A stretch of 25,755 nucleotides of DNA from an uncultured Eubacteriales bacterium (GTDB lineage: Bacteria; Bacillota_A; Clostridia; Oscillospirales; Oscillospiraceae). Within the stretch, counting starts at the first letter, position 1, and the number at the start of each line of letters is the position of its first letter. Location: contig CATKHE010000187.1 of the NCBI GenBank assembly GCA_949747935.1, positions 1 to 25,755 of the forward strand. The letters run 5' to 3'. Positions 11,303-25,661 of the stretch are shown one piece after another. The position numbers and the translations under genes were made by a program. The notes beneath the pieces are model-generated. The model had not been told where the DNA came from. It searched no databases and was given only the letters and a program-made list of their open reading frames with translations.

Positions 11303-11333
11303 GCGGAAACCAGAAACAAGGAGGTCGCGGAAA

Positions 11334-11435: not shown

Positions 11436-11455
11436 GGAAGCCGGAGGGAGAAGCG

Positions 11456-12766: not shown

Positions 12767-12838
12767 TGATTTTGTCACGGAGAAAATCTGTAAAATGAGT
12801 GATAATATATGCGATCAAGTATGAGGAGGCTGTCAGTA

Positions 12839-13042
12839 TTGGGAATTGCGCTGCGGAAGGCCCTGGTGGATCAGGGCAGCTGTGTGGCCTGCGGGTGCTG
12901 TGTCAAGGTCTGTCCAATGTCCGCCATCCGGGTTGTGAGGGGAATTGCGGCACAGGTGGACAGGGACAAGTGCGTGGGATGCGGAAAATGCGCCAAAGAA
13001 TGTCCAGCAACAGTGATTACCATTCAGGAGGCGGCTCTATGA
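12839..13042 (+). CDS. 2x[4Fe-4S] ferredoxin
   Basis: A 67-residue bacterial-type ferredoxin carries electrons between cytoplasmic redox enzymes. Two complete cluster motifs are visible: C15, C18, C21 with C25-Pro, and C45, C48, C51 with C55-Pro. I place the start at TTG 12839, nine bases after AGGAGG (12824-12829). The in-frame ATGs at 12809 and 12821 would put the Shine-Dalgarno inside the coding region and add unconserved residues. The stop overlaps the ATG of the next gene in ATGA, so the ferredoxin and the membrane polyferredoxin are coupled and probably exchange electrons. No convincing promoter is seen between the terminator and this gene. Confidence 0.85.
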   Translation: MGIALRKALVDQGSCVACGCCVKVCPMSAIRVVRGIAAQVDRDKCVGCGKCAKECPATVITIQEAAL

Positions 13043-13623
13043 AAAAAAGCTGGTATGACTACCTGTGGATCGTCTCCCTCGCCTATCTGATCCTTGGTTT
13101 TTTCAACATTCTGTTTGCGTGGCTGGGGCTGCTGTGCTTTTTCATTCCGCTGATCATCGCTGTCGCGGGCGGAAGCAAGGCCTACTGCAACCACTACTGC
13201 GGCCGGGGACAGCTGTTCGGGCTGCTGGGGGGACGCTTTGGCCTGTCCCGGAGGAGGGATATCCCGAAATGGATGAAGAGCAAGCTGTTTCGGTATGGAT
13301 TTCTGATTTTCTTTTTTGTCATGTTCTTCCAGATGCTGTGGAGTACTTATCTGGTCCTTGCGGGCGCCCAGGGCCTGCGGCAGGTGGTGACCCTTCTGTG
13401 GACCTTTAAGCTGCCCTGGCACTGGGCTTACCACGGGTCGCCGCTCCATCCCGGCGCGGTTCAGTTTGCCTTCGGATTTTACAGCGTGATGCTGACGTCC
13501 ACCGTGCTGGGGCTGGTCACAATGGTGCTGTTCAAGCCCCGCAGCTGGTGTGTCTACTGCCCGATGGGGACGATGACGCAGCTGATCTGCAAAGGGAGGA
13601 ATGGTAAGTCTTTCAATGAATGA
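13039..13623 (+). CDS. NapH/CcoG-like membrane iron-sulfur protein (Fer4_5 type)
   Basis: The 194-residue product has four predicted membrane segments: two near the N-terminus (about 10-30 and 31-46), one at about 86-108 and one at about 150-167. Two cysteine-containing motifs face the same side, C50-NHY-C54-GRG and C171-VY-C174-PMG, with another Cys at 184. This is the pattern of the NapH/CcoG/YccM-type proteins that move electrons between the quinone or membrane level and soluble partners. It is shorter than NapH and lacks the C-terminal pair of full ferredoxin motifs; the separate ferredoxin just upstream may supply them. The role is inferred as membrane electron transfer to or from that ferredoxin, with unknown final acceptor. 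Confidence 0.75.
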   Translation: MKKSWYDYLWIVSLAYLILGFFNILFAWLGLLCFFIPLIIAVAGGSKAYCNHYCGRGQLFGLLGGRFGLSRRRDIPKWMKSKLFRYGFLIFFFVMFFQMLWSTYLVLAGAQGLRQVVTLLWTFKLPWHWAYHGSPLHPGAVQFAFGFYSVMLTSTVLGLVTMVLFKPRSWCVYCPMGTMTQLICKGRNGKSFNE

Positions 13624-13635
13624 CAGATAAAATGT

Positions 13636-13684
13636 ACGCTGCCGGGCGGGAATTAATCCCCGCTCAGCAGCGTCAATTTTTTTT
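13636..13684 (+). terminator. Strong terminator between converging genes
   Basis: ACGCTGC (13636-13642) pairs with GCAGCGT (13667-13673), with an inner GCGGG/CCCGC stem, followed by CAA and eight T (13677-13684). It ends the ferredoxin operon. It overlaps the last codons of the converging Crp/Fnr gene, and the opposite strand shows a short ATTTTAT tail, so it may serve both. Confidence 0.8.
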
Positions 13685-14312
13685 GGTCTGTCAGCTCCAC
13701 GCAGCCCCGGGACAGTCTCACCAGGCCCTCGCTCTGGAAATAGCGGAGCATTCGGGTCACCACTTCCCGGGCAGAGCCCAGATGACTGGCTATTTTCTCG
13801 TGGGTGATGGACAAAACAGGGCTCCCCTCCAGGGCGCTCTCCCGGAGGAGAAAATCCGCCAGCCGCCTATCGAAGCTCCGCCACATGATCTGTTCCATCA
13901 GCCACATGACCTCAGAAAAGCGGCCGCTCATCAGATCGTTGGTGTAGTTGGCCACGGCGGCGGATTCTTCCATCAGCGTCCGGTAGATATCCGGCGGAAT
14001 GATCCATACCTGGGTGTCCTTTTCGGCCTCGACAGAGATTTCAAACTGAATGTTGCGCATGACGCAGGAGGCTGTAAAGAGGCAGACATCCATCTCGATC
14101 AGGCGGTAGATGGTAACCTCCCGTCCCTCATCAGAGAGAATATAGGCGCGCAGCTGTCCGGACTGCACCAGCAGCAGGCCGGTACAGTCCAGGGCCCCTC
14201 TGTGGATCAGAGCACCTTTCCCGATCATTTTTCGTGTCACCGACAGGGAGAGCCTGTGCTGCTGCTCCAGGGACAGCTCGTCCCAGATGGGAAAACAGTC
14301 TTTGAATTCCAT
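13653..14312 (-). CDS. Crp/Fnr-family transcriptional regulator
   Basis: About 219 residues. The N-terminal half is a cyclic-nucleotide-binding-like beta-barrel (GALIHRG...LLLVQSGQLRAYILSDEGREVTIYRL). The C-terminal half is a winged helix of the Crp type (ITHEKIASHLGSAREVVTRMLRYFQSEGLV), with the SAREVVTR recognition helix. The N-terminal cysteine cluster of oxygen-sensing FNR is absent, so it is not a classical [4Fe-4S] FNR; the effector is unknown. The start at 14312 is preferred because AAGGGGG (14326-14320) is then seven bases away; ATG 14318 would be too close. It has its own strong promoter. It converges on the ferredoxin/NapH-like pair and stands beside the sugar island, so either could be its target. 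I see no clear Crp/Fnr box upstream of the ferredoxin. Confidence 0.88.
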   Translation of the reverse strand: MEFKDCFPIWDELSLEQQHRLSLSVTRKMIGKGALIHRGALDCTGLLLVQSGQLRAYILSDEGREVTIYRLIEMDVCLFTASCVMRNIQFEISVEAEKDTQVWIIPPDIYRTLMEESAAVANYTNDLMSGRFSEVMWLMEQIMWRSFDRRLADFLLRESALEGSPVLSITHEKIASHLGSAREVVTRMLRYFQSEGLVRLSRGCVELTDQKKLTLLSGD

Positions 14313-14342
14313 GGTCATACCCCCTTGTACACGATACTCTAA

Positions 14343-14371
14343 AGTATAGAGGGATATGCCTTATCTGTCAA
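14343..14371 (-). promoter_or_regulatory. Strong promoter of the Crp/Fnr-type gene, with dyad over the -10 box
   Basis: On the minus strand, TTGACA (14371-14366) and TATACT (14348-14343) are 17 bases apart, a near-consensus sigma-A promoter. ATACT-CTAA-AGTAT (about 14334-14347) is a small dyad overlapping the -10 region and could allow autoregulation. Confidence 0.75.
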
Positions 14372-14418
14372 ATCTTATTGTATGCCTTGGCGGACGGTTT
14401 TCGGAGGTGGATACCAGA

Positions 14419-15105
14419 TCAGGCCTGGATTTTGGCGGCCGCGCCCCTGTCCAGCAGAATAGTGACCTCTGGATGGAGCTGAAGCAAGGTGGCGGGGACC
14501 TCGGCGGAAATGGTCCCGCCGCACATATCCGCAACGGCCTGAGCCTTATCCTCGCCGTTTGCCAGCAGGACGATCCGCTTTGCCAGCAGGATGCTGCGCA
14601 CTCCCATAGCCGCATAGGTGAAGGCGGGCCGTTCCACCCGGTGACAGGCGCTGGTCAGCGCCTGGGCGGGCCGGTTCATGCCGATATGGGCGTCGCTCCC
14701 GATGCCCAGGATCTGCATGTCCAGACGGCCGTCAGGGAGGCTGTTTAGCAGCGCCTCATACCGGACGCATTCCTCCTCCACATCTTGGGAGAGCCCGTCG
14801 GGCAGGCGGAGGCGCTCGGGATTGGCGTCCACATGGTCCAGCAGATGCCGGTGAAGGTAGCTGTGACAGCTCAGCTCATCCTGAGGGGCCACCCCCATTT
14901 TTTCTTCCAGGTTATAGAACCATGCGTTGGAAAAGGATACCCTTCCAGCTTGATAGAGCTTTATCAGCTCGGCGAACATGCCCACGGGGGTCTTTCCCGC
15001 GGTGAGGCCAAGATGGCTGTCGGGCTTGAGCAGAAGCTGAGCCGCCACCAGATCGGCCGCAGCCTGACACATCCGCTCATAGGTATCAAAAATACGGATT
15101 TTCAT
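14419..15105 (-). CDS. NagB-like sugar-phosphate isomerase/deaminase homologue with altered active site
   Basis: The 228-residue protein belongs to the glucosamine-6-phosphate deaminase/6-phosphogluconolactonase superfamily. It has the phosphate loop LGLTAGKTPVGMF (about 32-44), the N65-LEEK segment, LGIGSDAHIGMNRP (133-146) and the C-terminal VPATLLQLHPEVTILLD. In authentic NagB the catalytic residues lie in NMDEY (Asp72), and in DGHIAFNEP (Asp141, His143, Glu148). Here Asp138 and His140 remain, but Asp72 is replaced by Glu67 and Glu148 by Arg145. It is also shorter than NagB (about 266). A standard GlcN6P deaminase is therefore doubtful; a related substrate in the adjacent PTS/dehydrogenase pathway is more likely. 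It has its own promoter with a dyad site matching the one at the PTS operon. Start ATG at 15105 follows AAGGGGAG. Confidence 0.8.
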   Translation of the reverse strand: MKIRIFDTYERMCQAAADLVAAQLLLKPDSHLGLTAGKTPVGMFAELIKLYQAGRVSFSNAWFYNLEEKMGVAPQDELSCHSYLHRHLLDHVDANPERLRLPDGLSQDVEEECVRYEALLNSLPDGRLDMQILGIGSDAHIGMNRPAQALTSACHRVERPAFTYAAMGVRSILLAKRIVLLANGEDKAQAVADMCGGTISAEVPATLLQLHPEVTILLDRGAAAKIQA

Positions 15106-15159
15106 TGATTCACTCCCCTTTGTTCTTAGTTATTGACCGGAATGCTGCAATTTGGCGGT

Positions 15160-15188
15160 ATTATACCTGAGCGCGGGGAGGTTGGCAA
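15160..15188 (-). promoter_or_regulatory. Promoter of the nagB-like gene
   Basis: On the minus strand, TTGCCA (15188-15183) and TATAAT (15165-15160) are separated by 17 bases. The start point would be near 15153, about 48 bases before the ATG. The dyad at 15204-15232 ends 15 bases upstream of the -35 box. Confidence 0.75.
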
Positions 15189-15203
15189 TATTTCAGTGCG
15201 CCA

Positions 15204-15232
15204 TTGTAACAAAACAGCGCTGTTTGTTACAA
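15204..15232. promoter_or_regulatory. Near-perfect dyad operator upstream of the nagB-like promoter
   Basis: TTGTAACAAAACAGC (15204-15218) is mirrored by GCTGTTTGTTACAA (15219-15232) with one base missing in the A/T run. The centre lies about 65 bases upstream of the predicted nagB-like start point. It could also be read as a hairpin at the end of tetR, but it has no loop and no T-run, so an operator is preferred. The arm TGTAACAAAC recurs exactly at 15812-15803 (minus strand). Confidence 0.65.
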
Positions 15233-15243
15233 AACGCGGGCCG

Positions 15244-15786
15244 CTACAGAGGGTCGATACAGCTGAATTTGCTGATAATGCGATAGACGATGATAACCAT
15301 CTCCTCAATGCTCTCCTTCATGCCGCCGCGCAGCCAGTCAGTGAGAATTTTGACAAACATGCCCACCAGGGCGGAAACCTCATAGGGGTTCTCAAAGCCG
15401 TAGGCGGAAATGACGAGATATACACTGGAGTTGAGCTGGTCCTCCAAAAGCGTGGACAGCCGGTTGGACAGATTGTGCTTCTGGATGCATTCCATCAGGC
15501 CGCAGTGCTGTTGGCAGAAGACAAAATAGCTGCGGATAAAAAAGGGGAGGTACTGCTTTTGAGCGCCGCTGTTGGCCAGCCCAAATTCTGACATCTCGAG
15601 GTAGTCAAACAGGATATCGTTCAGGTCAGTATAGTTGCGGTAGAAGGTGACGCGAGCTACACCGGCTGTTTTGGTCAGTTGTGAAATTGTGATTTCTGAC
15701 AGATCCGTGTGTTCCAGAAGCTTGAGCAGCGCCATCTGCATCCACTGGCGGGCGAGTATGTTCTGCGGATTACCGGGTTTTTTCAT
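15244..15786 (-). CDS. TetR-family regulator, DhaS-like, likely activator of the island
   Basis: About 180 residues from ATG 15786 (GTG codons at 15801 and 15798 are alternatives; GGTGGTGA lies about 10 bases before the ATG). The N-terminal helix-turn-helix is ITISQLTKTAGVARVTFYRNY. The C-terminal half (SALVGMFVKILTDWLRGGMKESIEEM) resembles the TetR_C group that includes DhaS, the TetR-type activator of dihydroxyacetone kinase operons. The gene is divergent from the PTS operon and upstream of the nagB-like gene. Two matching dyads lie just upstream of the -35 boxes of both promoters, which fits an activator better than a repressor. One dyad also covers this gene's own start region, so it may limit its own expression. 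Ligand unknown. Confidence 0.85.
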   Translation of the reverse strand: MKKPGNPQNILARQWMQMALLKLLEHTDLSEITISQLTKTAGVARVTFYRNYTDLNDILFDYLEMSEFGLANSGAQKQYLPFFIRSYFVFCQQHCGLMECIQKHNLSNRLSTLLEDQLNSSVYLVISAYGFENPYEVSALVGMFVKILTDWLRGGMKESIEEMVIIVYRIISKFSCIDPL

Positions 15787-15812
15787 GGTACAATTCACCA
15801 CCGTTTGTTACA
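15785..15812. promoter_or_regulatory. Second copy of the dyad operator, upstream of the PTS promoter and over the tetR start
   Basis: GTTTGTTACA (15803-15812) matches an arm of the dyad at 15204-15232 exactly. The expected distal arm appears in degenerate form as ATGGTACAAT (15785-15794), at the same arm-to-arm spacing. GTTACA ends exactly 16 bases before the -35 box of the PTS promoter, as it also does before the nagB-like promoter. Confidence 0.6.
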
Positions 15813-15828
15813 GTTGTGGGGAAAGCGG

Positions 15829-15857
15829 TTGCAATATGGATAATTGGTGATTATAAT
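15829..15857 (+). promoter_or_regulatory. Promoter of the PTS/dehydrogenase operon
   Basis: TTGCAA (15829-15834) and TATAAT (15852-15857) are 17 bases apart. The leader would be about 140 bases. Confidence 0.75.
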
Positions 15858-15878
15858 GACGAAAAAACAAAAAGTCAA
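15850..15878 (-). promoter_or_regulatory. Promoter of the DhaS-like tetR gene, overlapping the PTS promoter
   Basis: On the minus strand, TTGACT (15878-15873) and TATAAT (15855-15850) are 17 bases apart. Its -10 box shares bases 15852-15855 with the -10 box of the rightward promoter, so the two promoters face each other and cannot be occupied together. Confidence 0.7.
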
Positions 15879-15908
15879 GCCGAACTTCCGCATAGTATCG
15901 ACAAAATT

Positions 15909-15936
15909 CACAAACAAAACCCCGAACAAGTTTGTG
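15909..15936 (+). promoter_or_regulatory. Inverted repeat in the PTS operon leader
   Basis: CACAAAC (15909-15915) and GTTTGTG (15930-15936) can pair over a 14-base loop. An outer GTCAAGCC (15874-15881) can pair with GGCTGAC (15942-15948) with one bulged base. The leader may fold, but no known riboswitch or antiterminator is recognised. Confidence 0.35.
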
Positions 15937-16002
15937 TGTCAGGCTGACCCGGATGAAAAAATACAGGAGAAAAAATAAAAAAAGGAGAGGTGTAACAGAT
16001 TT

Positions 16003-16425
16003 ATGATTCCGATTATGCTGGTAACGCACGGTGACTTCGCACGGGGAATTATAGACGGAGCGGAGATGCTGGTGGGAAAAAGCGAGAAGCTGGAGTGCGT
16101 CGTCCTCAGGCCCGGCGATGAGTTCGGGGTGTTCCAGAGGAGAATCGCCGAGCGGGTGAAGGAACTGGATGAGGGAGAAGGCGTTTTGCTCCTGGCCGAC
16201 CTGTTGGGAGGCAGTCCCTATAACGCGGCGGCCCTGACCATGGAGCAGGGAAATATAGAGTGTTTGACAGGACTGAATATGAGCATGCTATTGACGGCTC
16301 TGGATCAGCGTAAATACTGCAATTTATCTCAGCTGGTGGCGGTGAGCCGGGAAGCTGGGACATCCAACATTGTCAGCGTTCGGGAGAAGTTGCTTGAGCA
16401 GATCACAGATGATGAAGAAGATTGA
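16003..16425 (+). CDS. PTS mannose-family EIIA component
   Basis: The 140-residue product carries the first phosphorylation site of the permease. The IPIMLVTHGDFARGI start holds the active His9, which accepts phosphate from HPr and passes it to EIIB. LLLADLLGGSPYNAA is the conserved mannose-family IIA core. It begins the twelve-gene rightward operon and is preceded by a GAGGTG site. The C-terminus is acidic (DDEED). The EIIB gene follows within 17 bases. The mannose family transports hexoses, amino sugars and fructosyl- or glucosyl-amino acids, so the family alone does not fix the substrate. Confidence 0.92.
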   Translation: MIPIMLVTHGDFARGIIDGAEMLVGKSEKLECVVLRPGDEFGVFQRRIAERVKELDEGEGVLLLADLLGGSPYNAAALTMEQGNIECLTGLNMSMLLTALDQRKYCNLSQLVAVSREAGTSNIVSVREKLLEQITDDEED

Positions 16426-16442
16426 TGGGAGGATACGACACC

Positions 16443-16940
16443 ATGGCAAATATTAAGCTGACGCGGGTGGATTTCAGACTGATTCATGGACAGATTATCA
16501 CCAAGTGGCGCGGAGTGTTTGGGATCAACAAGATTGTTGTAATTGACGATATTCTGGCCGCAGATGATTTTATGATCCGGGTTTACTCCTCAGCGGTCCC
16601 TGTGGGGACAAAGGTGAAAGTCTATTCGGAGGAAAAAGCCCTGCGGCTGTGGAACAAAAACCAATTTGGCGAAAATGCAGAGGTATTGGTTTTGTTCAAA
16701 GATATTGAAACCTGCGACCGGGTGATCAGAGCCGGTGTTGGCCTGAGGGAAGTCCAGCTGGGTGGCGTACCACAGACGGCGGAGCGCAGGCTGATTAGAA
16801 AGGCGGTGTTTTTGGGAGCAAAAGAGATGGGGCTGGTCTGTGGACTGCACGACGAGCTGGGCGTCAGCTTTTCGGTCCAGGTGGTCCCGGAGGACAGCAA
16901 AATGGGATACGATGAGATCCTGAAGATCTACCAAAACTGA
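16443..16940 (+). CDS. PTS mannose-family EIIB component
   Basis: The 165-residue cytoplasmic domain transfers phosphate to the incoming sugar. The active His15 lies in the family signature RVDFRLIHGQI. IVVIDDILAADDFMIRVY, the VLVLFKDIETCDRVI region and GGVPQTAERRLI follow the usual IIB order. The ATG at 16443 has GGAGG at 16428-16432; the upstream TTG at 16422 overlaps the EIIA stop and is less likely. It is a free-standing IIB, as in the four-gene permeases for fructoselysine or glucosaminate rather than the fused ManX type. Confidence 0.93.
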   Translation: MANIKLTRVDFRLIHGQIITKWRGVFGINKIVVIDDILAADDFMIRVYSSAVPVGTKVKVYSEEKALRLWNKNQFGENAEVLVLFKDIETCDRVIRAGVGLREVQLGGVPQTAERRLIRKAVFLGAKEMGLVCGLHDELGVSFSVQVVPEDSKMGYDEILKIYQN

Positions 16941-16967
16941 CAAAAGAGAGAAACGGAGGAGTAAAAA

Positions 16968-17780
16968 GTGAACAACATGTTAGGTGTAGCAATCTTCTGT
17001 GGACTATGGTACGCGTTCGCGGGATGGCGTCCCTGCTACCTCACCCACACCATTTGGCTTGCGCCGCTGACTGCGGCCCTGCCCATCGGCATTATCATGG
17101 GAGATATTCCAAACGCTATGATTCTGGGCTCGGCAATCGGTATGCTCTATGTGGGCCTGGTGGCTCCGGGCGCTGAGATTCCGGCGGACACCTCTTCAGC
17201 GGGTCTGATTGGCATTGCGATTGGTCTGGCCATCGGTGCGGACACCGGAACGGCCATCGCCATCGCCGTTCCCTTTGGCGTACTGGGGGTGTTCCTGAAT
17301 ACCCTGCGCCGGATTATCAACGCCAGATTTGCCCATATGGCGGACAAGCACGCCCTGACCGGCAATATAGACGGCATTCGCAATTGTGCGGTGTGGTGGC
17401 CGTTGGCGCTGAACCTGGCCACCAAGTTCCCTCCGATGTTCATCGCAATTTACTTTGGGACTGGCGTTGTAGAAAAGGTGATCGATGCGCTTCCCGCTTG
17501 GGTTATGACTGGCTTCTCCGCAGCCGGCAGCATGATGCCGGCAATTGGTTTCGCCATTCTGATCAGCGCCATCGCCAAGAGAAGCATTCTGCCTTTCTTC
17601 TTCCTGGGCTTCTTTGTGGTTAAGATTTTTGGTTGCTCCGCGCTGCAACTGACCTGCCTGGGCGTTCCCATAGTGGTGGCTATTGTGCTGATGGCGAAGG
17701 ATCAGGAGGACGCCACGGTGAACCGGGCCCTGGCGGGCGGAGGAAGCCTGGCTGACGACGACGATGACGACGACGAGTAA
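16968..17780 (+). CDS. PTS mannose-family EIIC membrane component
   Basis: The 270-residue integral membrane subunit forms the sugar pathway together with EIID. Several hydrophobic segments are evident (GVAIFCGLWYAFAG, LTAALPIGIIMGDIP, AIGMLYVGLVAPG, IGIAIGLAIGADTGTAIAIA, and two or three in the C-terminal third). The GTG start at 16968 follows GGAGGAG. The tail ends in seven consecutive Asp and a Glu, an unusual feature for EIIC. Substrate specificity in this family lies mostly in EIIC and EIID and cannot be read directly. Confidence 0.92.
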   Translation: MNNMLGVAIFCGLWYAFAGWRPCYLTHTIWLAPLTAALPIGIIMGDIPNAMILGSAIGMLYVGLVAPGAEIPADTSSAGLIGIAIGLAIGADTGTAIAIAVPFGVLGVFLNTLRRIINARFAHMADKHALTGNIDGIRNCAVWWPLALNLATKFPPMFIAIYFGTGVVEKVIDALPAWVMTGFSAAGSMMPAIGFAILISAIAKRSILPFFFLGFFVVKIFGCSALQLTCLGVPIVVAIVLMAKDQEDATVNRALAGGGSLADDDDDDDE

Positions 17781-17794
17781 AGGGGGAGCATAGA

Positions 17795-18637
17795 ATGATG
17801 CTGAAAGAAAAAACGATGGAGAAAAGTTCGAAAATCAGGCTGTCAGATATTGTAAAGGTATTTTGGCGCTGGCAGCTGGCCGCTGAGATGTCCAATTCCT
17901 ATGAGCGGATGCAGGCCATCGCCTACTGCTATGCGATGGTTCCCGTCCTGAAGGCGCTGTACCCCAACCGGGAGGACTTTGTTGAGGCCCTGCAGCGGCA
18001 TCTGGTGTTCTTCAATACAGAGGGTACCTTTGGCACGCTGATTGTGGGCATGAGCGTGGCGCTGGAGGAGGAAAAAGCCGAGAGCGGCAGCAAAGTGACC
18101 GGCGAGAGCATTATCGCCCTGAAATCCGCGCTGATGGGCCCTGTGGCCGGCATTGGCGACACCATCAACGGCGCCACGCTGAAGCCCATCATTTTCACAC
18201 TGGCCGTTCTGGCCAGCGCGGAGGGCTCGGTCCTGGGCTGGTTTTTGATCTTCCTTTACGCAATTATTTCCGGAATCTACAGCTGGCTCCTGATGCTGAT
18301 GGGATACCGGATGGGCAAGGACGCCTTGGGCAGTTTGATGGCTACCGGCTGGATCGACCGTATTGTCTCCGGCGCCAGTATGCTGGGCCTGTTTATTGTA
18401 GGCGGTCTGGCCGCTTCCAACATCAACATCAAGCTGAACGGGACCTACATGAGCGGCGGAACCGAGAAGACCATCCAAAGCCTGCTGGACGGAATTGTTC
18501 CCGGCATTCTCCCCCTGGTTCTGGTGGTTGGACTGTATTACTATTTCAACAAAAACAAGGGGAATCAGTCCTTTGGAAAGATTGTCCTGCTTCTGCTGGC
18601 GCTGGGCATTCTGCTGGCGCTGCTGGGTCTTGTGTAA
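17795..18637 (+). CDS. PTS mannose-family EIID membrane component
   Basis: The 280-residue product is the EIID subunit, found only in the mannose family. It has the conserved AYCYAMVPVLKALYP and HLVFFNTEGTFGTLIVGMSVALEEEKA region, KSALMGPVAGIGDTI, and hydrophobic segments in the second half, with one at the C-terminus. GGGGGAG lies at 17782-17788 before ATG 17795; ATG 17798 and ATG 17816 are weaker alternatives. It completes the permease; the next gene starts 15 bases after its stop. Confidence 0.93.
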   Translation: MMLKEKTMEKSSKIRLSDIVKVFWRWQLAAEMSNSYERMQAIAYCYAMVPVLKALYPNREDFVEALQRHLVFFNTEGTFGTLIVGMSVALEEEKAESGSKVTGESIIALKSALMGPVAGIGDTINGATLKPIIFTLAVLASAEGSVLGWFLIFLYAIISGIYSWLLMLMGYRMGKDALGSLMATGWIDRIVSGASMLGLFIVGGLAASNINIKLNGTYMSGGTEKTIQSLLDGIVPGILPLVLVVGLYYYFNKNKGNQSFGKIVLLLLALGILLALLGLV

Positions 18638-18652
18638 CGGAACGCTTCGTAC

Positions 18653-19576
18653 ATGAAGGACCGCATAGTAACTGTCGCGGGTCTGTTCGGACGCCGTTTT
18701 ACCGGCAGACAGAAGACCGCTTTTCTCAATTACATAATCGCCCAGGCGGAGTTGGAAAGCATTCCAGCGGTTCTGGACGTCGGGAGGGATTCCAGGAGCG
18801 GGGCCTGCCGGAATCTCTACCTGGGCAATATGAAGCGGGCGTCTCTCCTGATTGCGGTGCCCTATGACACCCCGTCCCGGCTGTTCTGGCCCGACACCCG
18901 CTATTTCCCCCTGAATCCCGGAAGAAATATGCGGCGGGACAGCGGGGAAATGGCGGCGCGTCTCCTGCTGGGAGCCGCGGCGGCTGGCGGATACCTCTTC
19001 CTTGTCCTGCTCCCCGCGGTTCATCTGGGCGGCCCGGCAGTCTGGGCCGCCGCCGCGGGGATGGCGGCAGTAGCGGCTCTTGTGCTCAGGCTGATTGCCG
19101 GCATTCCAAACCGCCGGAATCACGCCAGAAACAGCGCGGGGATTGTGGCCGCGCTGGAGTATCAACGGCGCTTTGGCGGCGAGGCGGCAGTGGCGCTTCT
19201 GGACCAGAGCTGCTGCTCCTACAACGGCTACCGGCAGCTGGCGGAATATCTGGGCGGGACGGCCCAGAGCAAGCGGATGATTGTCCTAGACTGCGTCACC
19301 AGCGGCCCGGAGCTCCATGTCCACTGCGGCCAGCCGCTGGAGAAACGGCTGGAGAAGGCGGTTCGGGGCGCGGAGGTCCACGGCCTGGAGGCGTCACAGC
19401 TGGATCGGACGATGATGAAGCTGTTTCCCAAGGGTATCCTGATTACGGGGGGGTTCCGGGAACAAGGGGAGATGGTCATTGCGGACACCCGCTGCGGCCG
19501 GGACGCCGGCATTGATCTGGAAAAAATAGAGCGGACCCTGGAGGTTATACGGGGCATAGCGGAAGATTTACAGTGA
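18653..19576 (+). CDS. Membrane protein resembling a degenerate M28 peptidase, unknown function
   Basis: The 307-residue product has a cytoplasmic-looking N-terminal part, two hydrophobic segments (about 103-122 and 127-149), and a C-terminal soluble part. Two short regions look like M28 aminopeptidase landmarks. AVPYDTP (68-74) stands where active enzymes have a metal-binding His in A-H-x-D, and RNSAGIVAALE (159-169) resembles D-N-A-S-G-V-A-x-L-L-E. The His is replaced by Pro and the Asp-Asn pair by Arg-Asn, so metal binding is probably lost. The two membrane segments sit between these landmarks. It lies inside the operon between the permease and the dehydrogenase, so a role tied to the permease or in substrate binding is possible. 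The M28 relation is from pattern only and needs a profile search. Confidence 0.5.
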   Translation: MKDRIVTVAGLFGRRFTGRQKTAFLNYIIAQAELESIPAVLDVGRDSRSGACRNLYLGNMKRASLLIAVPYDTPSRLFWPDTRYFPLNPGRNMRRDSGEMAARLLLGAAAAGGYLFLVLLPAVHLGGPAVWAAAAGMAAVAALVLRLIAGIPNRRNHARNSAGIVAALEYQRRFGGEAAVALLDQSCCSYNGYRQLAEYLGGTAQSKRMIVLDCVTSGPELHVHCGQPLEKRLEKAVRGAEVHGLEASQLDRTMMKLFPKGILITGGFREQGEMVIADTRCGRDAGIDLEKIERTLEVIRGIAEDLQ

Positions 19577-19605
19577 GCTAGTTCATACACTGGAGGAATG
19601 TCCAT

Positions 19606-19923
19606 ATGAGAATCGAAACACATCCTATTCTGGGGAGCTGCGAGAAGGGGCCGCTGGTTTCCTTCACCTTGGATGGGAAAGAACTGGAGGGATATGAGGG
19701 GGAGCCGATTGCCGCCGCCCTGCGGGCGGCCGGCGTGATGGTTCACCGGCATACCCTGAAAAAGAATGAGCCGAGAGGTATTTTCTGTGCGATTGGCCGG
19801 TGTACAGACTGCGTGATGATTGTGGACGGAGAGCCCAATGTCCGCACCTGTATCACGCCCCTGCGGGCGGGGATGAGGGTGCAGACCCAGTATGGCGTGT
19901 CGGCAAAGGAGCAAGAGGCATGA
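19606..19923 (+). CDS. [2Fe-2S] subunit of an HcnA/opine-oxidase-like amine dehydrogenase
   Basis: The 105-residue product is a plant-type-fold [2Fe-2S] domain like HcnA, the A-subunit N-terminus of octopine/nopaline oxidases, and the small subunits of dye-linked proline dehydrogenases. C61, C66, C69 and C82 (FCAIGRCTDC and VRTC) are the expected cluster ligands. VSFTLDGKELEGYEGEPIAAAL is the typical N-terminal strand pair. GGAGGAA precedes the ATG at 19606. The stop overlaps the next gene in ATGA. It probably passes electrons between the FAD of the catalytic subunit and the FAD/NAD subunit encoded next. Confidence 0.88.
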   Translation: MRIETHPILGSCEKGPLVSFTLDGKELEGYEGEPIAAALRAAGVMVHRHTLKKNEPRGIFCAIGRCTDCVMIVDGEPNVRTCITPLRAGMRVQTQYGVSAKEQEA

Positions 19924-21497
19924 AACGATATGATTTGATTGTTGTGGGCGCCGGCCCTGCGGGCCTGTCAGCCGCCATCCAGGCGGCCCGGCTGGGCGCC
20001 AAGACGGCCGTTTTTGACGAAAACGCCAGCCCCGGCGGCCAGCTGTTCAAGCAGATTCATAAGTTCTTTGGGTCTAAGGAGCATCGGGCAAAGCTGCGCG
20101 GCTTTTACATTGGAGAACAGCTTCTGAAGGAGGCGTCCGAGGCCGGAGTCACCGTCCATCTAAACGCTGTGGTCATGGGTCTGTTCGACAACAAGGAGAT
20201 CCTGGTCAATATGGGCGGAGAGACCGTCCATTTCAAGGCGGACGCTGTTATCATCGCCGCCGGCGCCCGGGAAAATATGATTTCCTTCCCGGGCTGGACC
20301 CTCCCGGGCGTGATGGGGGCCGGTGCGGCCCAGACGCTGATGAATCTTCACGGCGTCCGCCCCGGCAAGCGCGTGCTGATGGTGGGCAGCGGCAACGTGG
20401 GACTGGTGGTCGGCTATCAGCTGCTCCAGGCTGGGGTAGAGCTGGCCGCCGTGATTGACGCCGCGCCCCGGGTGGGCGGCTACGGCGTCCACGCCGCCAA
20501 AATCGCCCGTATGGGGGTTCCCTTCTACCTGTCCCACACGGTGGTCCGGGCGGAGGGAGAGGACCATGTGATCGGGGCGGTCATCGCTCAGGTGGACAAG
20601 ACCTTCCGGCCCATCCCGGGGACGGAGATATCCCTGGACGTGGATACCGTCTGTATGGCCGTGGGCCTGAGCCCCATGAGCCAGCTGGCGGGCATGGTGA
20701 AGTGCCAGATGACCGACCGCGGGGGCATGGTGCCTGTGACAGACGCCAGAGGGGAGACCTCCATTCCGGGAATCTACGCCGCCGGAGACGTGGCGGGGAT
20801 CGAGGAGGCCAGCTCGGCGATGATCAACGGCCGGATCGCGGGCACCGCAGCGGCGGCCCGCCTGGGCTATCTGGAGGAGGAAGAGTGCGCCGAAACAATC
20901 CAGGAGCTGAAGGCCTCCCTCCAGCAGCTCCATGAGGGCATGTTCAGCCCGGCCAACAAGGGCCGGACAGACCTGACCCAGACAGACGAGGGGATCGCCC
21001 TTTCCGCGAGCCTGCTTCGCCGGGGCTATCTGGGCGACGACGAGGTGGAGCGCTTCCCCGGCGTCAGGTCCAGGGTGGGCATCCATCCCGTCATCGAATG
21101 TACGCAGAATATCCCCTGCAATCCCTGTCAGGACGCCTGCCGGTTCGGCTGTATCCATGTGGGCAAGACCATTACCAGCCTGCCCCAGGTGAATGAGGAG
21201 GCCAAGTGTGTGGGCTGCGGTATGTGTGTCGCCTCCTGCTCCGGCCAAGCAATTTTCCTGGTGGACGAGGACGCGGAGGAGGATTGGGCCACCGTCGTCA
21301 TGCCCTATGAGCTTCTGCCCTATCCCGAGGAGGGGGAGAAGGGGACGGCCTGCGGCCGGGACGGACAGCCTCTGTGTGAGGCGGAGGTTATCTCCTGCCG
21401 GACCAGCCCGGCCTTTGACAAGACGGCCCTGCTCTCCATTTGCGTACCAAAGGACATGTCAATGCGGGCCAGATTTTTCCGCAGAGAGGAGAAATAG
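19920..21497 (+). CDS. FAD/NAD(P)-binding subunit with C-terminal 2x[4Fe-4S] ferredoxin domain
   Basis: The 525-residue product is the HcnB/OoxA-type subunit. The FAD Rossmann motif VVGAGPAGLSAA (8-19) is followed by SPGGQLFKQ, a second nucleotide-binding motif VLMVGSGNVGLVVG (about 153-166), and the ATG-like IPGIYAAGDVAGIEEAS. A C-terminal extension carries two cysteine clusters, CNPCQDACRFGC (about 400) and CVGCGMCVASC (about 430). In related complexes the position of the FeS domain varies; here the ferredoxin is fused to this subunit while the BFD-type cluster is a separate gene. This suggests electrons can leave to a ferredoxin-like or NAD acceptor, as suits an anaerobe. Confidence 0.88.
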   Translation: MKRYDLIVVGAGPAGLSAAIQAARLGAKTAVFDENASPGGQLFKQIHKFFGSKEHRAKLRGFYIGEQLLKEASEAGVTVHLNAVVMGLFDNKEILVNMGGETVHFKADAVIIAAGARENMISFPGWTLPGVMGAGAAQTLMNLHGVRPGKRVLMVGSGNVGLVVGYQLLQAGVELAAVIDAAPRVGGYGVHAAKIARMGVPFYLSHTVVRAEGEDHVIGAVIAQVDKTFRPIPGTEISLDVDTVCMAVGLSPMSQLAGMVKCQMTDRGGMVPVTDARGETSIPGIYAAGDVAGIEEASSAMINGRIAGTAAAARLGYLEEEECAETIQELKASLQQLHEGMFSPANKGRTDLTQTDEGIALSASLLRRGYLGDDEVERFPGVRSRVGIHPVIECTQNIPCNPCQDACRFGCIHVGKTITSLPQVNEEAKCVGCGMCVASCSGQAIFLVDEDAEEDWATVVMPYELLPYPEEGEKGTACGRDGQPLCEAEVISCRTSPAFDKTALLSICVPKDMSMRARFFRREEK

Positions 21498-21498
21498 C

Positions 21499-21825
21499 AT
21501 GGAAATTCTGGATAGAAGCCGGGACCTGGGGCCATTTGTGGCTGGGCCGGACGACGATATGCTGGTCTGCCGCTGTGAGGAGATCACCAAGGGCGAAATC
21601 CGGCGGGCGGTCCACGAGGGCATGTTTACTATGACGGAGGTCCGGCGCTGGCTTCGGGTGGGCATGGGACTGTGCCAGGGAAATACCTGCGGACGAATTG
21701 TCAAGGGCATAATTGCCGCTGAGCTTGGCATACGCCCAGCGGAGCTGGAGGACTGCACGCCCAGGGGCCCCGTCCGTCCCGCTATGGTTGAAGTGTTGGG
21801 AAAAGAGGTGTTCGACCGTGACTGA
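21499..21825 (+). CDS. BFD-type [2Fe-2S] subunit
   Basis: A 108-residue protein with the bacterioferritin-associated-ferredoxin-like fold: C24 and C26 (CRCEEIT) with C59 and C64 (GLCQGNTC) bind one [2Fe-2S] cluster. In many HcnB-like proteins this domain is the C-terminus of the FAD/NAD subunit; here it is a separate gene directly after it. Its stop overlaps the GTG start of the catalytic subunit by eight bases, pointing to fixed stoichiometry within one complex. Confidence 0.87.
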   Translation: MEILDRSRDLGPFVAGPDDDMLVCRCEEITKGEIRRAVHEGMFTMTEVRRWLRVGMGLCQGNTCGRIVKGIIAAELGIRPAELEDCTPRGPVRPAMVEVLGKEVFDRD

Positions 21826-22954
21826 CACCGCTGACGTGATTATCATCGGCTCCGGCATTGTGGGCAGCGCCACGGCCTATGAGCTGGCCAAGCGAGGCCT
21901 GAAGGTTATTGTTCTGGAGAAGTATGGAAACGTAGGCGACGGGGCCTCCAGCCGGAACGGCGCCGGTGTCCGTCTGGGTGGCCGGGTAGCTCCTGAATCC
22001 TGGCTGGCGGCCAAGGCCATCCGGGACATCTGGCCCACCCTGGACCAGGAGCTGGACGCAGACCTGGAGTATCAAAAGGCGGGCTCCCTGACCATGGCCC
22101 ACTCTGAAGCGCAGGTCAAGGCGTGCGAGCGCAAGATTGAGAAGGACAAAGCGGCGGGGGTGGAATCCCGTCTGATCGACGGTGCGGAGGCCCGGGAGAT
22201 CTGTCCCCATCTGTCCAACTATGTGGAAAAAGCGGTTTGGAGCCCGGAGGACGGCTGCGCCAACCCTATGATGGTAACTCTGGCCTATTACCGTGCGGCA
22301 AGAAAGCTGGGGGTGCGCTACATAACCGGGGAGAATGTGATTTCTCTGGAAAAGTGCCGGGGCCGCATCCGCCGGGTTGTCACTGAGGCGGGCACGGTGT
22401 ATGAGGGGAACCAGGTTGTCCTGGCCGCCGGCTTCAACTCCCGCCGCATCGCCAAAACCGTGGGCATCTGGATTCCCTTCCTGAAGAGGGTGGACGAGTG
22501 CCTGATTACCGAGATTCAGCCTCCCATGTTCAAAACCCGCATCTCCTGCGCGGACGGCAACTTCTACGGCAGCCAGACCCGCCACGGCTCCTTCATTTTC
22601 GGGGGAAACACCAACCTGGAGCGCTATGAGGAGTGCTATGACGACAAACCGATGAACACCAACAAGCAGGTGTCGGACAAGTGCCGCATTATTGGACAGT
22701 TTGTCCCCGCCCTCAAGGGGGTCAAGGTGGTCCGATACTGGGCCGGGTGGCTGGATTCCATGGTGGACCGTCTGCCTGTCATCCAGGAGATAGAGGAGAT
22801 TCCCGGGCTGGTGCTGGCCTGCGGCTTCTCGGGACACGGCTTTGCCATCGGTCCTGCCGTGGGACAGGTGGTGAGCCAGATCGTGATGGGTGAGCCCACC
22901 TGTGTGGATGTGAGTGCGCTGCGGTATGACCGTTTCAAGCCCACAGGGTGCTGA
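21818..22954 (+). CDS. DAO-family FAD-dependent amine dehydrogenase, catalytic subunit
   Basis: The 378-residue product belongs to the D-amino acid oxidase/sarcosine oxidase fold. This group oxidises a C-N bond to an imine that then hydrolyses, and includes HcnC, opine oxidase B subunits, D-hydroxyproline and proline dehydrogenase beta subunits, and fructosyl-amino acid oxidases. The FAD motif GSGIVG (11-16) follows VIIIG. GASSRNGAGV, the ADGNFYGSQTRHGSFIFGG segment and the C-terminal GFSGHGFAIGPAVGQ are family signatures. The GTG at 21818 is supported by GAGGTG upstream and by the position of the Rossmann strand. Substrate is not readable from sequence; next to a sugar PTS, a secondary amine linking a sugar to an amino or carboxylic acid is my inference. 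Confidence 0.88.
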   Translation: MTDTADVIIIGSGIVGSATAYELAKRGLKVIVLEKYGNVGDGASSRNGAGVRLGGRVAPESWLAAKAIRDIWPTLDQELDADLEYQKAGSLTMAHSEAQVKACERKIEKDKAAGVESRLIDGAEAREICPHLSNYVEKAVWSPEDGCANPMMVTLAYYRAARKLGVRYITGENVISLEKCRGRIRRVVTEAGTVYEGNQVVLAAGFNSRRIAKTVGIWIPFLKRVDECLITEIQPPMFKTRISCADGNFYGSQTRHGSFIFGGNTNLERYEECYDDKPMNTNKQVSDKCRIIGQFVPALKGVKVVRYWAGWLDSMVDRLPVIQEIEEIPGLVLACGFSGHGFAIGPAVGQVVSQIVMGEPTCVDVSALRYDRFKPTGC

Positions 22955-22958
22955 GCGA

Positions 22959-23627
22959 ATGACAATTAAGGGAATTATTTTTGACATGGACGGGCTCATG
23001 TTTGACACGGAACGGCTTGTGTCCCAGGCCTGGAGTCAGGTAGACCGGGAGATGGGCCTGGGAATGTCGGAGAGAATGCCCGACATGATGGGCGTCAGTG
23101 TGCGCCAGGCCAATCTGATGTTCAAGGCGTGGTTTGGGGAAGATTTTGACTACTTTGAGGCCCGCCGCCGGCGCGTCGCAATTGTGGAGGAAGAGATTGC
23201 GCAGAATGGCCTGCCGGTCAAGTCCGGACTGTATGAGCTGCTGGAGTATCTGGAGAGGAAAAAGCTGCCGATGGCGGTGGCCACCTCGTCGGACCAGAGG
23301 GTGGCGGAGCGGTATTTGAAGCTGTCCGGAGTCCGAAAATATTTTGCCGCCGTGGTCTGCGGGGATATGGTGGAGCGCAGCAAGCCGGACCCCCAGATAT
23401 TTCAGACAGCCGCTGCTCTGCTGGGCACCAGACCGGGGGAGACTGTGGTTCTGGAGGACAGCTTTCATGGAATTCATGGGGCGTTCGACGGAGGATTTCT
23501 GCCCTGCATGGTGCCGGACCTGCGCCAGCCGACGCCGGAGCTGCGCAGGCTGTTGGTCCGCCAGTTCGACAGCCTGCTGGACGTCATCCCGTTTATAGAA
23601 GAGACACAGGGCCGGACGGTGTCCTGA
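22959..23627 (+). CDS. HAD-superfamily phosphatase/phosphomutase (beta-PGM-like)
   Basis: The 222-residue product is a subfamily IA HAD enzyme. Motif I is FDMDGLMFDTE (D9 nucleophile, D11 acid/base), motif II VATSS, motif III KPDPQIF (near 142), and motif IV VVLEDSFHGI. The cap domain between motifs I and II is all-helical, as in beta-phosphoglucomutases and sugar phosphatases. ATG 22959 gives the canonical short start. It follows the dehydrogenase stop by four bases. It may dephosphorylate or isomerise a sugar phosphate formed by the PTS and dehydrogenase; which one is unknown. Confidence 0.88.
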   Translation: MTIKGIIFDMDGLMFDTERLVSQAWSQVDREMGLGMSERMPDMMGVSVRQANLMFKAWFGEDFDYFEARRRRVAIVEEEIAQNGLPVKSGLYELLEYLERKKLPMAVATSSDQRVAERYLKLSGVRKYFAAVVCGDMVERSKPDPQIFQTAAALLGTRPGETVVLEDSFHGIHGAFDGGFLPCMVPDLRQPTPELRRLLVRQFDSLLDVIPFIEETQGRTVS

Positions 23628-23650
23628 ATGTGACAAGGAGGAAACGCGGA

Positions 23651-23914
23651 ATGGTCAAACAAAAAATTTGTATCCAGAACAAGACCGGGCTGCATGCCCG
23701 CCCTGCCAACGAGTTTGTGAAAACAGCCGCTCAATATCCCTGTAAGGTGACGTTTCGCAAGGGGGAGAAGGCCTTTAACGGAAAATCCATTGTCAGTGTG
23801 CTCTCCGCTTGCGTAACATGCGGGACATCAATTGAGATTGTCTGCGACGGCGAACGGGAGGAGGAAGCTCTGCGGAGCTTGGTACAGGCTGTGGAGGCTG
23901 GACTGGGGGAATAA
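23651..23914 (+). CDS. ptsH: PTS phosphocarrier protein HPr
   Basis: The 87-residue HPr has the active His15 in TGLHARPA and the regulatory Ser46 in NGKSIVSVL, which HPr kinase phosphorylates in Bacillota. Both key residues are kept, so it can take part in catabolite control as well as transport. AAGGAGGA precedes ATG 23651. Encoded next to Enzyme I at the end of a substrate-specific operon, it may be dedicated to this permease or may be a general HPr. Confidence 0.93.
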   Translation: MVKQKICIQNKTGLHARPANEFVKTAAQYPCKVTFRKGEKAFNGKSIVSVLSACVTCGTSIEIVCDGEREEEALRSLVQAVEAGLGE

Positions 23915-23927
23915 AGGACGTGAGGAA

Positions 23928-25634
23928 ATGGCTGTGACCTATCAGGGAGTTTCAATTTCACCGGGGGCGGCCCTGGGTCGGGTTTTGGTCGTCCAGGAGA
24001 ATTCAATGGAGCTTCCACAATATAAGCCGGTGGAGCCGGCGGCGGAAATAGAGCGGTTTCGGCAGTGCCATGGCGCCGCCATCCAGGAGACCCGGGAGAT
24101 GCTGGAGAAAGCACGGGCGGGGCAGAACGGGGACGCGGAGGGAATTCTGGACGCCCAGCTCACCCTTTTGATGGATGAATACGCTGTGGTCGAGCCCATT
24201 GAGGAGGCCATCGTTCAGGAGGGACTGAACCTGTTTCAGGCCGCAGGCCAGGTGTTTGAGGAGATTGCCGAAACCTTCCGCCAGGCTGACGATGAGTATA
24301 TGAGCCAGCGGGCCGCCGACGTGGAGGACATTTGTGGCCGGTTTCTGTCTCGGGGATTGGGACTGGGGCGACAGGATTACAGCAGTCTGCCCCAGGGGAC
24401 GGTTTTGGCCGCCCGGAGCCTGACGCCGTCAGACACAATAGGAATGGATCTGGAGCATGTTGCGGCGATTATTACGGAGCATGGGGGGTACTGCTCTCAT
24501 GTGGGTATTATTACCAGGAACCATGGAATTCCGTCGGTCAGCGGCCTGGAGGGAATTGTTTCCCTGCTCCAGGCGGGAGAAGAGGTGCTGGTCGACGGTG
24601 ATGAGGGGGCGGTCACCGCCGGATTGGGCGAGAGCGAGCGGGAGGCGTTTTACATTCTCCAACGGCAGAGGGAGGCGCGGGAGCGGGCCCTGGACCGGTT
24701 CCGAACCGCAGAGAGCCGCGCAGCGGACGGGGAGGCCGGCTTGATCTGTGCCAACATCGGGAGCGAAGCCGAGGCGGCGGGAGCGGCCGCGGCCGGCGCA
24801 GACGGGATCGGTCTGCTGCGCAGCGAGTTTCTCTATATGGGCTATGACCAGCTTCCTGATGAAGAGAGCCAGTTCCGGGCCTACCGCAGGGCGCTGGAGG
24901 ACATGGCCGGCCGGCCGGTGACCATTCGGACATTGGATATCGGCGGCGATAAGGAGCTCCCCGCCCTGCAGATGGAGCGGGAGGAGAACCCCTTTTTGGG
25001 CTGCCGGGCAATTCGTCTGTGCCTGTCACATCCGGATTTGTTCCATACACAGCTGCGGGCGCTTCTCCGGGCCAGCGTCTATGGCCGACTGCAAATATTA
25101 TTTCCGATGATCTCCTGCCTGGAGGAACTTCGGCAGGCGAAAGGGCTTCTGCTCCAGGTCAGAGAGGAGCTGGAGCAAGAAGGAATTCCCACTGCGCCTG
25201 TCCAGGTGGGGATGATGGTGGAGGTTCCATCCGCCGCCCTGCTGGCTGGTCATTTCGCCCAGGAGGTGGATTTTTTCTCCATTGGAACCAACGACCTGAT
25301 TCAGTATGCCTTAGCCTGTGAGCGGGGAAGCGCGAAGGTGGAGCACCTCTATTCCCCCTATCACCCGGCGGTGCTTCGGCTTATTGCCCTGGCCGCTGAA
25401 GGGGCCAGGGAAGCGGGAATTGAGTGTGGAATGTGCGGCGAAGCCGCCGCGGACCCCAGACTTCTGCCCCTGTTTTGGGGCATGGGAGTTCGGGAATTTT
25501 CCATGGCGCCCGCCGCAGTCACCAGAGCCAGAGCTGTTCTGTCCGGCGTAGACACTGCCGCTTGCCGTGAACTGGCCCGCAGGGCTCTGGACTGCGGAGA
25601 TGTAGAGAATGTAATAAAGCTTCTTGAGGTATAG
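23928..25634 (+). CDS. ptsI: PTS Enzyme I (phosphoenolpyruvate-protein phosphotransferase)
   Basis: The 568-residue enzyme starts the phosphate relay from PEP to HPr. The N-terminal domain begins GVSISPGAALG and carries the active His191 in GGYCSHVGIITRNHGIP. The C-terminal PEP-binding barrel has GIGLLRSEFLYM, IRTLDIGGDKELP, EENPFLGCRAIRLCL, MVEVPSAALLAG, SIGTNDLIQYALACERGS and the catalytic Cys503 in GMCGEAA. Length and motifs are canonical. The ATG at 23928 matches the family start; it lies 13 bases after the HPr stop. It is the last gene of the operon, followed by a perfect hairpin. Confidence 0.95.
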   Translation: MAVTYQGVSISPGAALGRVLVVQENSMELPQYKPVEPAAEIERFRQCHGAAIQETREMLEKARAGQNGDAEGILDAQLTLLMDEYAVVEPIEEAIVQEGLNLFQAAGQVFEEIAETFRQADDEYMSQRAADVEDICGRFLSRGLGLGRQDYSSLPQGTVLAARSLTPSDTIGMDLEHVAAIITEHGGYCSHVGIITRNHGIPSVSGLEGIVSLLQAGEEVLVDGDEGAVTAGLGESEREAFYILQRQREARERALDRFRTAESRAADGEAGLICANIGSEAEAAGAAAAGADGIGLLRSEFLYMGYDQLPDEESQFRAYRRALEDMAGRPVTIRTLDIGGDKELPALQMEREENPFLGCRAIRLCLSHPDLFHTQLRALLRASVYGRLQILFPMISCLEELRQAKGLLLQVREELEQEGIPTAPVQVGMMVEVPSAALLAGHFAQEVDFFSIGTNDLIQYALACERGSAKVEHLYSPYHPAVLRLIALAAEGAREAGIECGMCGEAAADPRLLPLFWGMGVREFSMAPAAVTRARAVLSGVDTAACRELARRALDCGDVENVIKLLEV

Positions 25635-25635
25635 A

Positions 25636-25661
25636 GAGGCGGCGCTGAAAAGCGCCGCCTC
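25636..25661 (+). terminator. Perfect hairpin after ptsI, probable terminator
   Basis: GAGGCGGCGCT (25636-25646) and AGCGCCGCCTC (25651-25661) form an 11-base-pair GC-rich stem with a GAAA tetraloop, one base after the stop codon. There is no T-run after it, so it may act as a 3'-end stabiliser rather than a full intrinsic terminator. Confidence 0.6.

Follow-up and report, generated by a model that had tools for sequence, protein, structure and literature searches.

In Salmonella, the Gfr system pairs a mannose-family phosphotransferase system (PTS) with deglycases for fructoselysine and glucoselysine, as described in two reports (PMC12675984, PMC12136445). A third places Gfr under the sigma54-dependent regulator GfrR, and the D-glucosaminate system, Dga, under a sigma54-type activator (PMC4987338). 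Opine, D-hydroxyproline and archaeal L-proline dehydrogenases, for their part, combine a DAO subunit bearing an Arg-X-Trp motif with an FAD subunit and a 2Fe-2S subunit (PMC4575208). Here, we describe a 14-gene block in which elements of both kinds meet. It lies in a 25,755-base stretch, hereafter the window, of an uncultured Eubacteriales bacterium (contig CATKHE010000187.1), and encodes a mannose-family PTS, a four-subunit DAO-family dehydrogenase and a protein resembling the deaminase NagB. On balance, we favor a reading in which the operon is self-contained: its PTS imports the substrate, and the dehydrogenase then cleaves the C-N bond of an N-substituted sugar phosphate by oxidation.

Like Gfr (PMC12675984, PMC12136445), the block couples mannose-family EIIA, EIIB, EIIC and EIID to enzymes of its own that would act on a phosphorylated amine-sugar. 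However, a Pfam scan of all 14 proteins detected neither an SIS domain nor an ammonia-lyase domain, in agreement with the initial annotation of this DNA; the block has a redox complex instead, together with a NagB-type protein. The Gfr deglycases GfrE and GfrF, by contrast, are SIS-domain proteins. Unlike Gfr, the operon also includes its own HPr and EI, and the sole regulator in the block is of the TetR type. Literature searches of limited scope returned nothing joining a mannose-family PTS with an FAD-dependent oxidoreductase operon, nothing joining PTS, sarcosine oxidase and fructoselysine, and nothing joining opine dehydrogenase, PTS and EIID; for 1-deoxynojirimycin breakdown, only unrelated items were among the matches listed. 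The block appears to differ from the known glycation-product pathways compared here.

Layout and conservation of the block

An operon on the + strand (16003-25634) encodes, in order, EIIA, EIIB, EIIC, EIID, a 307-aa protein, the HcnA-like, HcnB-like, BFD-like and DAO subunits of the dehydrogenase, a HAD phosphatase, HPr and EI; neighboring genes are separated by -8 to 29 bases. The four dehydrogenase genes form one run between EIID and HPr/EI, and the genes for the NagB-like protein and the TetR-type regulator complete the block (Table 1). Every gene named in the initial annotation was found between 14419 and 25634, each with a Pfam domain, but one gene, located at 18653-19576 and flanked by those for EIID and the dehydrogenase, had been overlooked. 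The NagB-like gene had been called divergent from the operon. It is indeed on the opposite strand, but the two are not adjacent, as tetR, which shares the strand of the NagB-like gene, intervenes.

The same block is found in a second genome. A 12,960-base contig (L001) of an uncultured Oscillibacter metagenome-assembled genome (MAG; G001) carries 14/14 block genes in unchanged order and orientation, at 42-83% identity, with all four dehydrogenase subunits at 79-83%. The two loci also share a short motif: TTTGTTACA occurs three times in the window, all within the two gaps flanking tetR (0.05 copies expected), and twice in L001, once in each corresponding gap (0.03 expected). We predict this motif to be the TetR operator. 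Co-regulation of the NagB-like gene with the operon, as originally proposed, gains support from the confinement of TTTGTTACA to the tetR-flanking gaps at both loci, and the NagB-like gene is probably controlled by the same TetR.

The permease is a complete one of the mannose/sorbose family, with EIIA-man, PTSIIB_sorb, EII-Sor and EIID-AGA domains all above Pfam cut-offs. The phosphorylatable histidine is present in EIIA (THG) and EIIB (RLIHGQ), motifs that we take to be phospho-His sites, and the motifs of EIIA, EIIB, HPr (both His and Ser sites), EI and HAD are intact. Homology and these intact phospho-sites support a predicted role for the PTS in importing and phosphorylating the substrate.

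Table 1. Features of the block, with positions in the window and protein identity to the L001 counterparts.
Feature	Position	Strand	Evidence	Identity to L001
NagB-like protein, 228 aa, short subfamily (Glu67, His140, Arg145; shortened lid)	14419..15105	-	PF01182 72.4 bits	53%
Operator-like inverted repeat TTGTAACAAA / TTTGTTACAA, 5' of NagB-like gene	15204..15232	.	sequence repeat	
TetR-type regulator	15244..15801	-	PF14278 TetR_C_8 28.8 bits; L001 orthologue	59%
Operator-like TTTGTTACA in tetR/EIIA gap	15804..15812	+	occurs in corresponding L001 gap	
PTS EIIA, mannose family	16003..16425	+	PF03610 85.4 bits; His motif	63%
PTS EIIB, sorbose/mannose family	16443..16940	+	PF03830 134.3 bits; His motif	62%
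PTS EIIC	16968..17780	+	PF03609 213.3 bits	77%
PTS EIID	17795..18637	+	PF03613 265.1 bits	71%
307-aa M28-peptidase-fold protein (read as pseudo-peptidase), zinc site lost, two long predicted helices	18653..19576	+	alignment, model	42%
HcnA-like [2Fe-2S] subunit	19606..19923	+	PF13510 109.4 bits; C-x4-C-x2-C-x12-C	83%
HcnB-like FAD/NAD-type subunit, C-terminal Cys clusters (ferredoxin-like)	19920..21497	+	PF07992 139 bits; motifs	81%
BFD-like [2Fe-2S] subunit, 108 aa	21499..21825	+	PF04324 50.8 bits	79%
DAO-family catalytic subunit, 378 aa, clade A (Arg224, Arg241, Arg269, Lys288)	21818..22954	+	PF01266 240.7 bits	79%
HAD phosphatase	22959..23627	+	PF13419 108.1 bits	53%
HPr	23651..23914	+	PF00381 99.4 bits	70%
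Enzyme I, 568 aa	23928..25634	+	PF02896 364.7 bits; PF05524; PF00391	59%

The DAO subunit and the NagB-like protein

Both flavoproteins of the dehydrogenase retain an intact GxGxxG motif, which in the DAO subunit reads GSGIVG, and the Arg-X-Trp of the latter is present as RYW. The HcnA 2Fe-2S motif, the BFD motif and the two HcnB Cys clusters are likewise intact; against Fer4_7, the HcnB-like subunit scored 20.1 bits, under the cut-off of 27. By the definitions in PMC4575208, the alpha-subunit FAD motif and the gamma-subunit [2Fe-2S] motif C-x4-C-x2-C-x11..12-C are both present, in keeping with the opine, D-hydroxyproline and archaeal L-proline dehydrogenases. The complex departs from those enzymes in that the C-x-C..C-x4-C motif sits on the separate BFD protein instead of inside the alpha subunit, that the HcnB subunit has two further Cys clusters, and that the catalytic subunit belongs to a clade that is PTS-linked and carries extra basic residues. 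Because the BFD motif is on a separate protein, we place the complex beside the bacterial three-subunit enzymes, as a relative and not as one of them. The model of the DAO subunit has a pLDDT of 89.1, and amine or amino-acid oxidases and dehydrogenases lead its fold matches, among which is also a glycerophosphate oxidase. In an NCBIfam scan that covered ten of the 14 block proteins, this subunit scored 155.7 bits for soxB, 131.8 for ThiO, 69.4 for glycerol-3-phosphate oxidase and 67.2 for GlpA; the sarcosine oxidase cut-offs were missed both by DAO (529.45 for soxB) and by HcnB (soxA, 125.5 versus 1164).

A protein search with the DAO subunit scored 7,998 candidates, of which 598 passed E 1e-60 and 120 were listed. 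From those of 340-400 aa (P0003-P0079, with P0080-P0122 left out) we built a FastTree phylogeny, midpoint-rooted, whose support values were not inspected. Clade A comprises P0003-P0041, the window and L001, with genomic context known for two members only; clade B takes in the sequences from P0042 on, together with 13 PTS-free cassette loci. Arg224, Arg241 and Arg269 are present in 37/37 clade A sequences and Lys288 in 36/37, whereas in clade B (n=50) a basic residue occupies position 224 in 10% and positions 241, 269 and 288 in none, with Met at 241 in 50/50. The four near-invariant basic residues of clade A would fit a phosphorylated substrate. Arg52, the presumed counterpart of the Arg that binds carboxylate in sarcosine oxidase, is conserved throughout both clades (37/37 and 50/50). 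Relative to the PTS-free cassettes, median identities are 74.5% for HcnA, 64.2% for HcnB, 61.0% for BFD and 48.1% for DAO. Relative to L001, by contrast, all four subunits stand at 79-83%. The DAO subunit is thus further from the PTS-free cassettes than its redox partners are, the pattern that exchange of the catalytic subunit would leave; 'subunit-exchange' has been reported for opine dehydrogenases (PMC4575208). A proline or sarcosine dehydrogenase placed here by chance, which the initial annotation had named as one outcome that would undo its interpretation, is disfavored by the synteny of the block with L001 and by the position of the DAO subunit in a clade separate from that of the PTS-free cassettes, with basic residues of its own.

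These PTS-free four-subunit DAO cassettes occur in other Clostridia (L002, L051-L062). L002 and L001 were the two loci returned by a scan of genome contigs with the DAO subunit, which used exact short peptide patterns and so reaches close relatives only; L002 gave matches for the four dehydrogenase genes alone. Near its cassette, positions 11176-12312 encode an ornithine-cyclodeaminase superfamily protein matching the NCBIfam model 'tyramine oxidase subunit B' (NF004848, 552.5 bits), and inspection by eye places genes for RidA-like proteins and amino-acid permeases beside several PTS-free cassettes. The PTS-free cassettes probably encode an amine or amino-acid dehydrogenase.

The NagB-like protein shares a Pfam family, 42% identity and the catalytic His with NagB of B. 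subtilis (2bkv), but it fell under the curated cut-off of all eight NCBIfam families that it matched (TIGR00502, 180.7 versus 236.9 bits). In a protein search, 122 sequences passed E 1e-20 and 120 were listed; these include at least 46 close clusters (P0123-P0168, 48-99% identity), followed by ordinary NagB at 44% or less among the listed rows covering at least 90% of the query. We aligned the 46 clusters with the window and L001 proteins (n=48) and compared them with 75 others (P0169-P0242 and 2bkv, some of them fragments) at Asp72, His143 and Glu148, for which we assume the E. coli numbering and catalytic roles. In the short subfamily, His143 is kept in 48/48, Asp72 is replaced by Glu in 48/48, and the Glu148 position holds Arg (33), Lys (7), His (4) or another residue (4), so that it is basic in 44/48 and Glu in 0/48. 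The lid spans 21-23 residues, about 16 fewer than in NagB. Among the 75 comparison sequences, by contrast, Asp occupies position 72 in 68, Glu position 148 in 69, and the lid measures 36-39 residues in 70. From these alignments, the NagB-like proteins are a distinct short subfamily with a changed active site. Canonical NagB, a glucosamine-6-phosphate deaminase, is ruled out by the active-site residues, and because these positions differ, the earlier proposal that the protein processes a released sugar phosphate as NagB would is unsupported.

Short NagB and clade A DAO are linked by contig data. Two of the 46 short-NagB clusters have the longest-contig size of a clade A cluster (P0126/P0035, 1,470,107; P0133/P0023, 8,497), where about 0.03 would be expected by chance; one clade B cluster also shares a size (P0164/P0092, 12,273), so strict exclusivity to clade A is not established. 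Among 20 genomes with either DAO clade, searched at E 1e-30, the short NagB was found in the sole clade A genome (G001) and in 0/19 clade B genomes; the five NagB matches at this threshold were the G001 short form and four ordinary NagB. In another group, 5/14 genomes matched at 1e-40, all with ordinary NagB by their residues, and in a further group 0/19 matched at 1e-70, a search that had no positive control. With the whole block syntenic in one other genome and clade A and short-NagB clusters matching in contig size, the initial annotation is not refuted on co-inheritance, and the block is more than a chance cluster.

The 307-aa protein and the distribution of the block

The 307-aa protein has no Pfam or NCBIfam match at E 0.001. 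A protein search that scored 7,997 candidates returned two relatives, 99% and 51% identical, and missed the 42% orthologue of L001, so more relatives may exist. Among 300 genomes of the family, 30 matched at 1e-3. None of the 29 other than G001 did better than E 4.6e-13, and these distant relatives include M28 peptidases (PF04389 in all four that were scanned). An open frame matching the profile was obtained from 22 of the 29 distant loci. We then checked seven positions that we take to be the M28 zinc ligands and catalytic Glu: all seven residues are kept in 13/22 distant relatives, whereas the window, L001 and P0002 keep two of seven and share the replacements Pro, Arg, Ser, Cys and Arg. The predicted model (pLDDT 74.3, pTM 0.73; the other four models, 47.5-59.8), which contains two long helices (89-125 and 128-148), matched M28 enzymes by Foldseek and VIA-align. 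The protein thus has the fold of M28 zinc aminopeptidases and glutaminyl cyclases with five of the seven zinc-site positions replaced, and we read it as a pseudo-peptidase maintained between permease and dehydrogenase at both loci, where it is probably a binding or scaffold protein. Partly lost zinc sites were also seen in 9/22 of the aligned M28-like proteins of the family (L008, L010, L011, L015, L016, L018, L020, L022, L023); degenerate M28 proteins may be common there.

In the sampled genome sets, we found the full block in no genome besides G001. The DAO query matched 9/394 genomes of the order (E 1e-60), 11/391 of the class (1e-100) and 6/397 of the family (1e-110), sets that overlap and are centered on G001; identity was 80% in G001 and 50% in the next best, G152. 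In the family of the L002 genome, 6/58 genomes matched at 1e-100, the best at 47%. HcnB matched 5/86 genomes of the genus at 1e-100 (G001 at 81%, the others at 65, 56, 52 and 50%), and EIIC 3/295 genomes at 1e-30, of which the two other than G001 reached 31 and 33%. PLSDB plasmids held no copy of DAO at E 1e-60, and viral contigs no relative of queries A4 or A5. RpoD of the window matched 20/24 genomes of the L001 genus (G001 not among them), 18 at 70-75% and two, in partial matches, at 78 and 83%. As these values lie mostly below those of the dehydrogenase subunits in L001, the comparison hints at horizontal transfer. Two short-NagB clusters, P0147 and P0153, are named as Hungatella MAGs, so the block may extend beyond Oscillospiraceae.

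Directly after EI is a GC-rich inverted repeat (25636-25661, by eye), possibly the operon terminator. Just upstream of the block are two genes, one for a Crp/Fnr-family regulator (13653-14318, -) and one whose product matches 4Fe-4S weakly (12799-13623, +); farther away, in a housekeeping region, rpoD (3352-4671) is followed by a gene for a 1110-aa protein consisting mostly of Sel1 repeats (4771-8103, +; 28 stretches). No Rfam family reached its gathering threshold in the window, none reached E 0.1 in 14300-16100, and no tRNA was found in the window.

A candidate oxidative pathway and its alternatives

In the pathway that we favor, EI, HPr, EIIA and EIIB would power import through EIIC and EIID and phosphorylate the substrate, presumably to a phosphorylated amine sugar. 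Judging from its relatives among the dehydrogenases of opines, D-hydroxyproline and L-proline, the four-subunit complex would oxidize this compound at its C-N bond in the DAO subunit. Flavins, 2Fe-2S proteins and the ferredoxin-like HcnB tail would carry the electrons away, and hydrolysis of the imine would give a sugar phosphate and an amine or amino acid. The short NagB-like enzyme, with its rebuilt Glu/His/Arg site, would act on the amine-sugar phosphate or its product, and the HAD protein would dispose of or recycle a sugar phosphate. Its nearest match is the phosphatase part of mannitol-1-phosphate dehydrogenase/phosphatase (7oct; NF046057, 184.3 bits, under the cut-off of 800). The roles of these last two proteins are inferred, as is the substrate. 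The original interpretation is partly supported; its substrate class, whether amino sugar, glycation product or opine, is still a matter of inference.

As a first guess at that class, we would name an N-hexosyl or N-hexityl amino acid of the Heyns, Amadori or mannityl-opine type. NagB chemistry takes the C2 amine off an amino sugar 6-phosphate, which makes the Heyns/Amadori idea attractive, as does the Glu-to-Arg change in the NagB-like protein, which could hold an amino-acid carboxylate. A fuller version, possible but doubtful, is a redox deglycation in which N-glycated amino acids (Heyns/Amadori or hexityl) are imported as 6-phosphates, the complex (through a phosphate-binding pocket) and the Glu/His/Arg NagB cleave one linkage each in place of the Gfr deglycases, and the zinc-less M28-fold protein serves as a subunit or binds the amino-acid part. 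A mannityl-opine variant, weighed separately from the other candidate substrates, is considerably less probable. There, an N-(1-deoxymannityl) amino acid 6-phosphate would yield mannose 6-phosphate, which would enter glycolysis via phosphomannose isomerase. Mannityl opines join mannose to glutamate or glutamine (PMC6341043), and a phosphomannose-isomerase-like frame follows EI in L001 (11785-12318; PF20511, 41.6; TIGR00218, 63.4, under 116.2). That frame is, however, broken, lies close to the end of a MAG contig and is a single occurrence, and the rest of the window after EI showed no phosphomannose-isomerase gene.

Other alternatives remove the link between sugar and amine. The substrate of the dehydrogenase could be a secondary amine or amino acid in free form, of the proline, hydroxyproline or sarcosine type, with the PTS serving an unrelated sugar and the two simply co-regulated, for example for co-fermentation. 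The amino-acid-type genes beside the sister cassettes ('tyramine oxidase subunit B'; RidA-like genes and permeases by eye) point this way, as do the solved relatives that are closest in sequence, the L-proline dehydrogenase beta subunit (1y56_B, 142 bits) and the sarcosine oxidase beta subunit. We nevertheless consider it unlikely, for the dehydrogenase genes are embedded with tight gaps between EIID and HPr/EI in an arrangement kept in L001, and the DAO subunit carries clade-specific basic residues and has diverged more than its partners. Less likely again, and on a par with the mannityl variant, is that DAO oxidizes the C-OH of a phosphorylated polyol, as GlpA and GlpO do, in a hexitol or related phospho-polyol pathway with no amine. 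Against this stand the top fold matches of DAO to amine and amino-acid enzymes, and its soxB and ThiO scores, well above those for glycerol-3-phosphate oxidase and GlpA.

If the oxidative C-N cleavage that we favor is true, two enzyme subfamilies would be defined whose listed members, where named, now carry the names 'glucosamine-6-phosphate deaminase' and 'glycine/D-amino acid oxidases'. Oscillospiraceae-like bacteria would then possess an oxidative, PTS-coupled route for amine-sugar compounds besides the known deglycases.

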